This document shows positions 31,678 to 34,188 of a stretch of 38,085 nucleotides of DNA, one piece after another. The stretch is taken from contig NZ_VUMM01000019.1 in assembly GCF_009696175.1 (NCBI RefSeq), forward strand, positions 1 to 38,085, written 5' to 3'. Both the position numbers and the translations under genes were made by a program. The number at the start of each line of letters is the position of its first letter. The first letter of the stretch is position 1. This DNA is from Floccifex porci. Its GTDB lineage: Bacteria; Bacillota_I; Bacilli_A; Erysipelotrichales; Erysipelotrichaceae. The notes beneath the pieces were generated by a model that was given only the letters and a program-made list of their open reading frames with translations, searched no databases and was not told the DNA's origin.

Positions 31678-31710
31678 TATTGGTTTAAAATAATTTTTTA
31701 ACAAATTGTT

Positions 31711-31762
31711 TTGACAACTATTGTTGTCAATGATAAAGTATTAATGACAAATAAAGTTGTCA
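31711..31762 (+). promoter_or_regulatory. Promoter and paired operators of the Xre regulator
   Basis: Consensus -35 TTGACA (31711-31716), 17 bases, then TGA-TAAAGT (-10 at 31734-31739). Two inverted repeats with the same form, TGACAA-6 bases-TTGTCA, lie at 31712-31729 and 31745-31762. The first covers the -35 box and the second covers the predicted start (31746). They are 33 bases apart, close to three helical turns, so two dimers could bind one face and contact each other. This is the classical layout of self-repression. Confidence 0.75.
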
Positions 31763-31782
31763 AAAAAGAGGTGATAGAATCT

Positions 31783-31998
31783 ATGGCAATTCTAAATCGT
31801 GTAAAAGAATTACGAGCAGCTATGGGAATCAATCAGCAGGAATTAGGAAGTCTTGTCAATGCATCCAGGCAAACCATTTCTTTGATTGAAAGGGGAGACT
31901 ACAATCCCAGTATTACACTGGCTTTAAAAATCAGCCATGTATTTCAAAAAAATGTAGAAGAAGTCTTTATGTTAACGGAGGATGAATATGAACAATGA
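31783..31998 (+). CDS. Xre-family transcriptional regulator
   Basis: 71 residues, a single helix-turn-helix of the Cro/CI type: RVKELRAAMGINQQELGSLV then NASRQTISLIERGDYNPS and a short C-terminal tail. It belongs to the compact group that pairs with DUF3169 membrane proteins. The ATG at 31783 is chosen because AGAGGTGA lies upstream; an earlier in-frame TTG lies in the operator. Overlaps the next gene by 11 bases. Likely represses its own operon at the two palindromes. Confidence 0.88.
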   Translation: MAILNRVKELRAAMGINQQELGSLVNASRQTISLIERGDYNPSITLALKISHVFQKNVEEVFMLTEDEYEQ

Positions 31999-32701
31999 TA
32001 AAAAGATAATGATTCGGTTTGTTTTTATTATGATCATCAGTTTAATAATTGGTGGTTTTATTGGTTTTTTGATAGGTGGATATTATCAGGAATTGTTTGA
32101 ATGGAGCATTTATCTTAGTGATCTGCTGATTACATATGGAGTATTTGCGTATGGTATAGGATATTTTCTGTTACTGATTTCTACAATATACTATTTTAAA
32201 GCAAAATCTTATTTAAAGGCTTTGGAAGATGAAATCAATTATGAAACAGCAAATAAAACATTGTCAAAAGCAATGATATTTAATAATGTCGCAATGCCTT
32301 TAATGTTCATCTGCTTAGGATTGTCTGCCTATTCTCTTTTTGATCTGGGAATGATATCCTTTCTTCTTATTGTTGTGTATATAGTATGGACACTGATTCT
32401 TTCAAATGTCATCATTAAAAGCATTAAACAAATGGCACCTGAAAAGAAAGGTAATGTATTTGATGTAAAATTTCAGAAAGACTGGTATGAAAGCTGTGAT
32501 GAACTGGAAAAATTACAAATTGGAAATGCCTGTTATAAAACATTTAAATGTATGACCAATATTTATTTAGTAAGTGCAGTGATAATATGTTGTCTGTCAT
32601 ATACTGGTTTTATCTCTCCATTCTGGATTTTATTTATTGGTATGTTATGGATCCTTCAACAAGCAATTTATTCTATATATTGTATGAAAGAAAACATTTG
32701 A
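31988..32701 (+). CDS. DUF3169 family membrane protein
   Basis: 237 residues with about six membrane helices: 7-27, 44-68, 95-114, 117-140 and two near the C-terminus. The middle cytoplasmic part (KGNVFDVKFQKDWYESCDELEKLQIGNA, residues about 150-180) is the conserved DUF3169 segment. The partner Xre gene overlaps by 11 bases, a widespread pairing whose function is unknown; a membrane sensor that controls the repressor is one idea. Start set at the second ATG (31988), 6 bases after GGAGG. Confidence 0.82.
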   Translation: MNNDKKIMIRFVFIMIISLIIGGFIGFLIGGYYQELFEWSIYLSDLLITYGVFAYGIGYFLLLISTIYYFKAKSYLKALEDEINYETANKTLSKAMIFNNVAMPLMFICLGLSAYSLFDLGMISFLLIVVYIVWTLILSNVIIKSIKQMAPEKKGNVFDVKFQKDWYESCDELEKLQIGNACYKTFKCMTNIYLVSAVIICCLSYTGFISPFWILFIGMLWILQQAIYSIYCMKENI

Positions 32702-32704
32702 TTT

Positions 32705-32734
32705 TTGTATTATTTAATCTTTATGGTGTATAAT
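32705..32734 (+). promoter_or_regulatory. Promoter of the LRR gene
   Basis: TATAAT at 32729-32734 with a weak -35, TTGTAT (32705-32710), at 18-base spacing. Predicted start near 32741, ahead of GGAGG (32745-32749). Confidence 0.45.
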
Positions 32735-32757: not shown

Positions 32758-34188
32758 ATGTTGATTAAAGATGACGGTCTAAGACAGGTAATAGCTTCAA
32801 AATTAAAATGTAAAGAAGATGAAATTAATGAGAATAATATGATGGATCTGATTTATCTGGATGCACAGGAAAGAGAGATTGAATGTCTGGATGGATTGGA
32901 GTATGCACAAAATATTGAGACATTGATTCTGTCTCGAAATAAACTGCAATCTCTGGATCCAATTAAAGATTTAAGAAACATCGAAAAATTAGATGTTTCT
33001 GGAAACCAGCTAAGAGATTTACAGGCATTGCATGGATTCAGACAACTGAAATCACTGAATATTTCTCATAATAACTTATACACAATGGATATTTCTGCAG
33101 TTGCGGCGATGATCAATCTGGAATATTTAAATATGAAAAAAGCTAAAATTGACAGTCTGGTTTATCTGGAAAAATGTGCTCATTTAAAAGAAGTCAGCAT
33201 CAATACAGAAAACGGTCCATTCAGCTTTGCGGTTTTAGGACGCCTTAAAAATCTTAAGAAGCTGGATCTGTCAGGAATGCGTTTATTCAATATTGATGAT
33301 TTAACTTATATTTCGACTTTGGAAGAACTGGATCTGTCAACAAATTTAATGAATGATATTTCTGCTTTACTGTCAATGGAAAATTTGCGTGTATTAAATG
33401 TTCAGAACTGTCCATATCTGAAAGATTATTCACTTTTAAAAGAATTTCCATCATTGGAAGAATTGGATATGTCTTATAATGTTCCTGATAATTTTGACTT
33501 TTTACGCTCTTTGAATAAACTGCAGGTTTTACGTATGGAACAATCTGGATTCAGTGATATGAGGGAACTGAATCACCTGTCTTCCTTAAGAAAACTGGAT
33601 GTTTCTAAGAATGAAATTACCCATGTGGATGATTTTATTACAGTTGGAAATTTAACAACTTTTAAAGCACAATATTGTCAGCTGGTTTCTATAGAATTTT
33701 TAAAGAAAGCCAATCAGTTGATTCATTTGAATATCAACAACAATTCCATTCGTGATATTTCACCATTGAAACATGCGAATCATATGGTGGATCTGAAAGC
33801 TGGAAACAACAATATCGAAGATATATCTGCTTTAGAAGATATGAAACAGCTTCAGATTTTAAATTTTGAATATAACAATGTTTCGGACATATCTCCTTTA
33901 AAAGATTTAAAGGAATTATGTTATGTGGATTTCTACAACAATAATATTGAAGATTTAAGTCCATTAAAAGATCTGGAATTCATTTCTTATTTAAGACTGG
34001 ATCATAATGCAATCAAAGATATTTCACCAATCGCAAATCTTCCTTATTTGTTGTCTTTATCTTTAAAGAACAATCAGATCAGTGATGTTTCACCATTAAA
34101 GAATTTAACTTTACTGGAAACATTAAGAATATATGGAAATCCAATTGAGGACTTATCTGGATTGGAATATGGTAAATTAAGAAATTAA
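32758..34188 (+). CDS. Leucine-rich-repeat protein without export signal
   Basis: 476 residues made almost wholly of 22-residue internalin-type repeats, about 17, from residue 40 to the end. The consensus is seen in LKELCYVDFYNNNIEDLSPL: Leu/Ile spacing with Asn at the turn and DISPLK between units. The first 35 residues form a small helical cap. There is no signal peptide, LPxTG motif, or membrane segment, so it appears cytoplasmic, unlike classic internalins. A protein-binding role is likely. The ATG at 32758 follows GGAGG by 8 bases; an upstream ATG overlaps that site. It ends in its own terminator. Confidence 0.9.
   Translation: MLIKDDGLRQVIASKLKCKEDEINENNMMDLIYLDAQEREIECLDGLEYAQNIETLILSRNKLQSLDPIKDLRNIEKLDVSGNQLRDLQALHGFRQLKSLNISHNNLYTMDISAVAAMINLEYLNMKKAKIDSLVYLEKCAHLKEVSINTENGPFSFAVLGRLKNLKKLDLSGMRLFNIDDLTYISTLEELDLSTNLMNDISALLSMENLRVLNVQNCPYLKDYSLLKEFPSLEELDMSYNVPDNFDFLRSLNKLQVLRMEQSGFSDMRELNHLSSLRKLDVSKNEITHVDDFITVGNLTTFKAQYCQLVSIEFLKKANQLIHLNINNNSIRDISPLKHANHMVDLKAGNNNIEDISALEDMKQLQILNFEYNNVSDISPLKDLKELCYVDFYNNNIEDLSPLKDLEFISYLRLDHNAIKDISPIANLPYLLSLSLKNNQISDVSPLKNLTLLETLRIYGNPIEDLSGLEYGKLRN

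Follow-up and report, generated by a model that had tools for sequence, protein, structure and literature searches.

The xre-DUF3169 locus and its neighbors

The window (the whole stretch of DNA analyzed, 38,085 nucleotides from Floccifex porci) contains a gene for a small Xre-family repressor, followed directly by a gene for a DUF3169 membrane protein and preceded by a promoter that carries two copies of the palindrome TGACAA-N6-TTGTCA:

31711..31716, + strand: -35 hexamer TTGACA, embedded in O1
31712..31729, no strand: putative operator O1, TGACAACTATTGTTGTCA, an exact TGACAA-N6-TTGTCA that contains the -35 box
31734..31739, + strand: -10 hexamer TAAAGT, 17-bp spacer after the -35, with TG in front (extended -10)
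31745..31762, no strand: putative operator O2, TGACAAATAAAGTTGTCA, exact, 33 bp from O1, starting at about the predicted transcription start
about 31768..31775, + strand: ribosome-binding site, AGAGGTGA, where relatives have a third operator, O3
31783..31998, + strand: xre, a 71-amino acid CylR2/AyrR-like repressor (HTH_3, PF01381, 1.8e-12; CylR2, 1utx, 1.8e-11)
31988..32701, + strand: DUF3169 (AyrA-like) membrane protein (PF11368, 5.5e-38), overlapping the end of xre
32729..32734, + strand: TATAAT, in the gap between DUF3169 and a leucine-rich-repeat gene

The mechanically called open reading frame of xre starts at TTG 31711, but the real start is likely ATG 31783, behind AGAGGTGA, yielding the 71-residue regulator of the original prediction. 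Its recognition segment reads SRQTIS-LIERGDYNPS, and among solved structures its first match is CylR2 (residues 3-63). The DUF3169 protein, the only one encoded in this genome, scores 131 bits against a profile cut-off of 31.6; its start is taken as ATG 31988, an ATG upstream at 31982 being a possible alternative. The predicted structure (mean pLDDT 93.3) comprises six long helices, and a DE-x-E motif (CDELEK; D171, E172 and E174) follows the fourth; in an alignment of 46 sequences D171 is invariant and E172 is conserved in at least 90%. A Foldseek search with this model gave no match at E <= 0.001, a second look returning common helical arrangements alone, and an NCBIfam search with the protein returned no family.

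The divergent neighbor of xre looks, on reading its sequence, like a cold-shock gene. Directly 3' of DUF3169 lies the leucine-rich-repeat gene (32758-34185; 476 amino acids, many LRR_4 repeats, no obvious signal sequence by eye). The TATAAT in the preceding gap suggests that the leucine-rich-repeat gene is transcribed from a promoter of its own, outside the xre-DUF3169 unit; the + strand between the two genes shows no terminator-like site, however, so read-through is possible.

Two exact palindromes overlie the promoter

Two exact copies, 33 bp apart, one over the -35 box and one over the predicted start, had been claimed in the original prediction, and this layout is confirmed: the copies begin at 31712 and 31745, TTGACA overlaps O1, and O2 starts 5 bp past the -10 hexamer, close to the transcription start. 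The start-to-start distance corresponds to 3.14 turns at 10.5 bp. With a free gap of 3-9 bp, the window holds two sites versus 0.08 expected from dinucleotide shuffles, only 1 of 100 of which reached two. At up to two mismatches there is no excess over shuffles (6 found versus 4.2 expected), and the signal therefore resides in the exact sites.

The genome-wide search that had been proposed found no exact copies beyond these two in 2,024,886 bases. Places with one mismatch number 10 elsewhere in the genome, versus 7 for a reversed-pattern control; among the eight of these 10 that were inspected, several fall within coding sequence and one precedes a DUF6442-like/Xre operon. A 10/12 site at 31699, which overlaps O1 by 5 bp, was considered as a further operator and rejected as a product of AT-richness, because the -35 box by itself accounts for 5 of 6 matches in its right half, and neither G nor C is conserved in its left half; at the same offset in relatives, a match of at least 8/12 occurs in 20 of 49 arrays among the matches listed. 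At the position that O3 occupies in relatives the window matches at 1 of 12 bases, and the third operator is absent.

Conservation of the palindromes with the gene pair

Conservation was assessed by two independent approaches, starting from the protein and from the pattern. In the window's order, DUF3169 scored over the cut-off in 20 of 315 genomes, and 20 loci were examined (one fragment, L052, was omitted, and genome G023 contributes two). An Xre gene is present in 19 of these, and the palindrome does occur upstream of these orthologs, as the original prediction required: 18 of the 19 xre-DUF3169 loci carry at least two TGACAA-type sites. In 17 of the 19, at least two sites of >=9/12 lie within about 150 bp, spaced by 33 or 34 bp in 13 loci, by 21 bp only in three and by 39 bp in one. 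In locus L022, three sites follow one another every 21 bp, farther upstream than in other loci, and L018 has a weak, chance-like site between its two exact ones. L030 has no TGACAA-type sites; ahead of its CPBP-Xre-DUF3169 operon lie TGTAAA-N6-TTTACA sites in a similar layout (by eye).

Searches of the class and phylum around the window's genome found DUF3169 above the cut-off in no genome outside the order. A sample from the order of Coprococcus comes gave four in 256. A Bacilli sample (279 genomes of the class, around Amphibacillus) gave 61, from which 30 loci were fetched; two without Xre were dropped, leaving 28. No TGACAA-type site of >=11/12 was found in 17 of these 28 xre-DUF3169 loci, so the operator and the gene pair are not tied everywhere. 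Loci are called staphylococcal-type or streptococcal-type here on a presumed sequence likeness and not on a named record. By eye, loci of large-genome Bacilli with an SRQTIA-type recognition segment show TGTATA/TTTACA-like 18-bp sites, and no such site was seen in streptococcal-type loci (SRQSIS). Since other Bacilli use other sites, the half-site appears to change with clade, and a specificity switch, in which altered half-sites go with recognition-helix changes, is possible. L030, L274 and SRQTIA-type loci such as L248 and L254 share the same 18-bp dyad geometry with TGTAAA/TGTATA half-sites; L274 apparently has three sites at 21-bp steps.

From the pattern side, two exact sites separated by any 0-30 bp were sought in one genome per species (84,980 species). 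The scan yielded at least 120 stretches; all matches listed were used, and the counts among them are not independent events because many come from related species. Among the matches listed, a window-type Xre is the first gene in 84 of 120 and lies within 2 kb in 14 more (98 in total, counted from the last site of each cluster at limits of 430 bp and 2 kb), and where the gene after Xre could be identified it was DUF3169 in 60 of 63. The operon walk followed fixed rules and overlooked Xre in some loci; the promoter direction that it guessed agrees with that of Xre in 73 of 83 among the matches listed. The 22 of 120 stretches without Xre among the matches listed comprise seven non-Bacillota records (Actinoplanes, Actinokineospora, a beta-proteobacterium, a Myxococcales, a Sphingorhabdus and two Phycisphaeraceae), eight that run off the fetched stretch, ending in the promoter's direction, one odd case (L154) and six that head other genes; one of the run-off stretches, L159, does lead into xre-DUF3169. 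Across 35 genomes reached via the listed loci, the pair pattern occurs in 35 and the reversed control in none.

Relationship to staphylococcal AyrR/AyrA

The original prediction described the gene pair as uncharacterized, which does not hold: its staphylococcal homologs, AyrR and AyrA, have been the subject of genetic work (PMC5013292, PMC5727409). AyrR of S. aureus is a Cro/CI-like protein of 67 amino acids that represses its own operon, ayrRABC; its loss raises the four operon genes 42- to 91-fold, whereas in RNA-seq of four repressor mutants all genes outside the operon changed 1- to 6-fold (PMC5013292). A mutation of G to A, located 62 bp before cro/cI, confers resistance that is not complemented by wild-type cro/cI (PMC5013292). 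Deletion of ayrA abolishes induction, and ayrA(R233K) is constitutive; the signal proposed for AyrA is the accumulation of preproteins with stable signal peptides (PMC5727409). The same paper mentions other species that have ayrRA and lack ayrBC.

By sequence, the window pair is homologous to AyrR/AyrA, a repressor plus relay of signal-peptidase stress. Both systems consist of a small Cro/CI-like self-repressor (a predicted one in the window) encoded directly before a DUF3169 membrane protein (the repressor measuring about 67-71 amino acids), and the palindrome of staphylococcal-type loci has the same half-sites as that of the window, where it lies, by sequence, in front of the repressor gene itself. 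The D-E(a/g)E motif that PMC5727409 places in the TM4-TM5 loop is present in the window protein, although its (a/g) position is L. AyrA is needed for derepression in S. aureus, and the original suggestion that the coupled membrane protein could be the sensor fits AyrA, the support there being purely genetic; derepression through the DUF3169 protein upon signal-peptidase inhibition is known from S. aureus alone.

The two systems also differ. In contrast to ayrRABC (SAUSA300_0350-0353), no ayrBC follows DUF3169 in the window, the next gene encoding the leucine-rich-repeat protein, and the operon contains no ABC transporter genes. The window has two TGACAA operators with the -35 box within O1, whereas staphylococcal-type loci have one main operator whose right half seemingly supplies the -35 (by eye). 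Identity between the window's DUF3169 protein and the staphylococcal-type proteins is about 14-17%.

Ten of the Bacilli loci, those of staphylococcal type, carry a 67-amino acid-type repressor whose sequence largely matches the residues published for AyrR (R11, E34, N53), and ABC genes follow DUF3169 in seven of them. Within the palindrome, TGA has its G at -62 in four loci, at -63 in four, at -61 in one and at -58 in one, so that the published S. aureus mutation position coincides with the palindrome G in 4 of 10; in -62 loci such as L251 and L264, a G of AGGAGT lies at -14, as published. L252 has a changed left half-site. Our literature search returned no account of a TGACAA-N6-TTGTCA operator; two 2015 AyrR papers, which lay outside its reach, may define the S. 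aureus site.

Promoter geometry and a predicted self-repressing unit

Column counts were made over 48 arrays with 33-bp spacing, oriented by Xre (one of 49 was dropped for too short a flank). Among the matches listed, all 48 have T immediately before O1, making TTGACA; the hexamer 17 bp past this -35 matches TATAAT at a mean of 4.6 of 6 positions, and TGn precedes the -10 hexamer in about 90% (consensus TGnTATnnT). The invariant T and the -10 at 17 bp indicate that O1 supplies the -35 and that O2 begins at about +1.

The palindrome, which the original prediction took to be the likely recognition sequence of the small repressor, is very probably the operator of the window Xre, given its presence upstream of orthologs. 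We consider it likely that the locus is a minimal, self-repressing unit of the AyrR/AyrA type, in which Xre on O1 and O2 represses and DUF3169 relays a signal and relieves repression. One Xre dimer would bind O1, covering the -35 box, and a second would bind O2 at the transcription start; RNA polymerase would be barred from an otherwise strong promoter, and this double blockade would hold xre-DUF3169 low by autorepression. The co-transcribed DUF3169 protein would act as a membrane relay, upon whose signal (by staphylococcal analogy, accumulated unprocessed preproteins) repression would be lifted. What is observed is the pair of sites, how they sit in the promoter, that they are conserved together with the gene pair, and the homology; from these we infer binding, repression, relay and signal.

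As the exact operator stands before no other gene in the window's genome, the xre-DUF3169 unit is its only predicted target. The window copy thus appears to be an effector-less form of the AyrR/AyrA type that controls itself only; it may be a sensor whose effectors have been lost, DUF3169 may itself carry its action, or weaker targets may lie beyond the reach of exact matching.

In another reading, the sites serve some other regulator or have no function at all. The genome encodes two further small Xre proteins (41% and 36% identical to the window Xre); they possess a different recognition segment, however (SRNTIS), and are encoded downstream of DUF6442-type genes. The genome-wide uniqueness of the exact sites, their cross-species tie to a window-type Xre (98 of 120 among the matches listed) and the coincidence of the published S. 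aureus mutation (PMC5013292) with the palindrome G in staphylococcal-type loci make this reading very improbable. A different doubt concerns the signal. CylR2, from cytolysin regulation in Enterococcus faecalis, is the closest solved protein to the window Xre, and both CylR2/CylR1 and the window pair a repressor with a membrane protein; CylR1 is a predicted membrane protein needed for induction, and the window unit might likewise answer an extracellular peptide or lantibiotic-like signal instead of preproteins. The partner here is a DUF3169 protein, however, a family that the literature consulted links to AyrA (PMC5727409), with six long helices in the model, whereas CylR1 is described with three predicted TM segments and its target is a divergent toxin operon. 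Nor was a lanthipeptide-type gene noted among the open reading frames listed for 29-35 kb (a listing that leaves small peptides outside), and we regard a CylR-like mode of action as improbable.

The spacing itself invites another reading, in which 33 bp is chiefly a cooperativity constraint placing two dimers on one face of the DNA. Among the matches listed, 33 bp is the modal spacing (58 of 120, counted from the first pair found within 420 bp; 83 with Xre), followed by 35 (8), 34 (7), 42 (7), 31 (6) and 30 bp (6). Phase does seem to matter between some dimers: in 52 of 83 arrays among the matches listed, O2 is followed at exactly 21 bp by a third site, O3 (>=8/12; 0.30 in tail shuffles), while other offsets from 19 to 42 have one or none each. 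Between O1 and O2, however, the spacing ranges from 30 to 42 bp while the -10 generally keeps 16-18 bp from the -35 in O1 (some cases are weaker, and in five 21-bp rows the last pair picked by script is either ambiguous or located past the promoter), and spacings of 33 to 36 bp run progressively out of phase. Because the promoter keeps its place on O1 when the position of O2 shifts, we take 33 bp to be a product of -35/+1 geometry; cooperative binding, which the original prediction had read from this spacing, is not borne out by it, and a chiefly cooperative origin seems unlikely. The best sign of dimer-dimer contact is the strict two-turn phase between O2 and O3 in relatives.

Genes under the operator in other genomes

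The same operators also head genes for ABC-2 transporters and for CPBP, M50-like and DUF3267 membrane proteases. ABC-2 transporters follow DUF3169 in cis in at least eight loci (both subunits assigned by Pfam in L099, L107, L120 and L121; one in L116, L183, L243 and L244). In both Amphibacillus genomes (L078, L238), in Eubacterium callanderi (L239) and in a Lachnospiraceae MAG (L193/L242), an ABC-2 operon has its own array at a separate place, and another array heads xre-DUF3169. Membrane metalloproteases lie under the operator in at least 11 loci. Seven encode CPBP proteins (PF02517), all seven with an EExxxR motif: among the matches listed, CPBP is the first gene, followed by Xre, in L085, L128, L132 and L184; in L156 no Xre was seen, in L082 it comes after DUF3169, and in L173 it stands between Xre and DUF3169. 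Two encode M50-like proteins (L084, L123) that fall below Pfam's cut-off with HExxH and NDG present, in genomes where a second array heads xre-DUF3169-ABC, and two encode DUF3267 zincins with HExxH (L103, L122). CPBP and ABC families are common, and these locus numbers are raw counts. The CPBP gene of the window's own genome is absent from the exact and one-mismatch operator places.

These arrangements raise the possibility, to which we give somewhat less than even weight, that the tandem operator marks a Bacillota-wide, AyrR-type regulon of membrane or secretion stress, comprising the sensor pair, ABC-2 transporters resembling AyrBC (encoded in cis or at another genomic place) and membrane metalloproteases of the CPBP, S2P/M50-like and DUF3267 kinds. 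In S. aureus, derepression permits secretion in which the signal peptide is cut internally; a review points out that the transporter lacks a protease-like domain and suggests a membrane-localized protease, leaving open which one (PMC5376350). If the regulon exists, its proteases would be of the kind proposed to make this cut when signal peptidase fails. No S. aureus protease is strongly co-regulated, because in RNA-seq only the four operon genes moved strongly (PMC5013292); the operator-linked proteases leave the S. aureus case unsolved and offer testable candidates elsewhere.

In the literature consulted, AyrR/AyrA is known from genetics in one organism. The operator can now be read at base level and is conserved, with a fixed promoter layout, across many Bacillota. 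It yields candidate target-gene lists for species with ayrRA and no ayrBC, whose targets were left open in PMC5727409, shortlists candidates for the alternative signal-peptide cut (a question from PMC5376350), and opens a candidate regulon.

Several other arrangements were observed. A membrane-protein-like family (A2), whose seven members are 22-46% identical to the first and share a G-x-V-Y motif, occupies the first position under the operator array in L104, L125, L126, L150, L164, L171 and L188, usually with Xre and DUF3169 next; the seven proteins gave no Pfam match and no convincing NCBIfam family. Xre-DUF6442 operons, like the window, combine a small Xre with a small membrane protein, but their recognition segment and membrane partner are unlike the window's. 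Two lie in the window's own genome (the C18:12049 region, L010, and the C23:63849 region, L197; assigned by sequence likeness), one of them preceded by the one-mismatch operator TGACAAGTTATCTTGACA, and a third, L191 (assigned by Pfam), has a full operator array before DUF6442-Xre. The xre-DUF3169 locus L083 comes from a record that bears the label Bacteroides sp. (MAG), which may reflect misbinning or transfer. Two consecutive small Xre genes stand between the array and DUF3169 in L240 (Eubacterium callanderi) and L107 (Blautia schinkii), and in L111 xre is followed by a tandem pair of DUF3169 genes.
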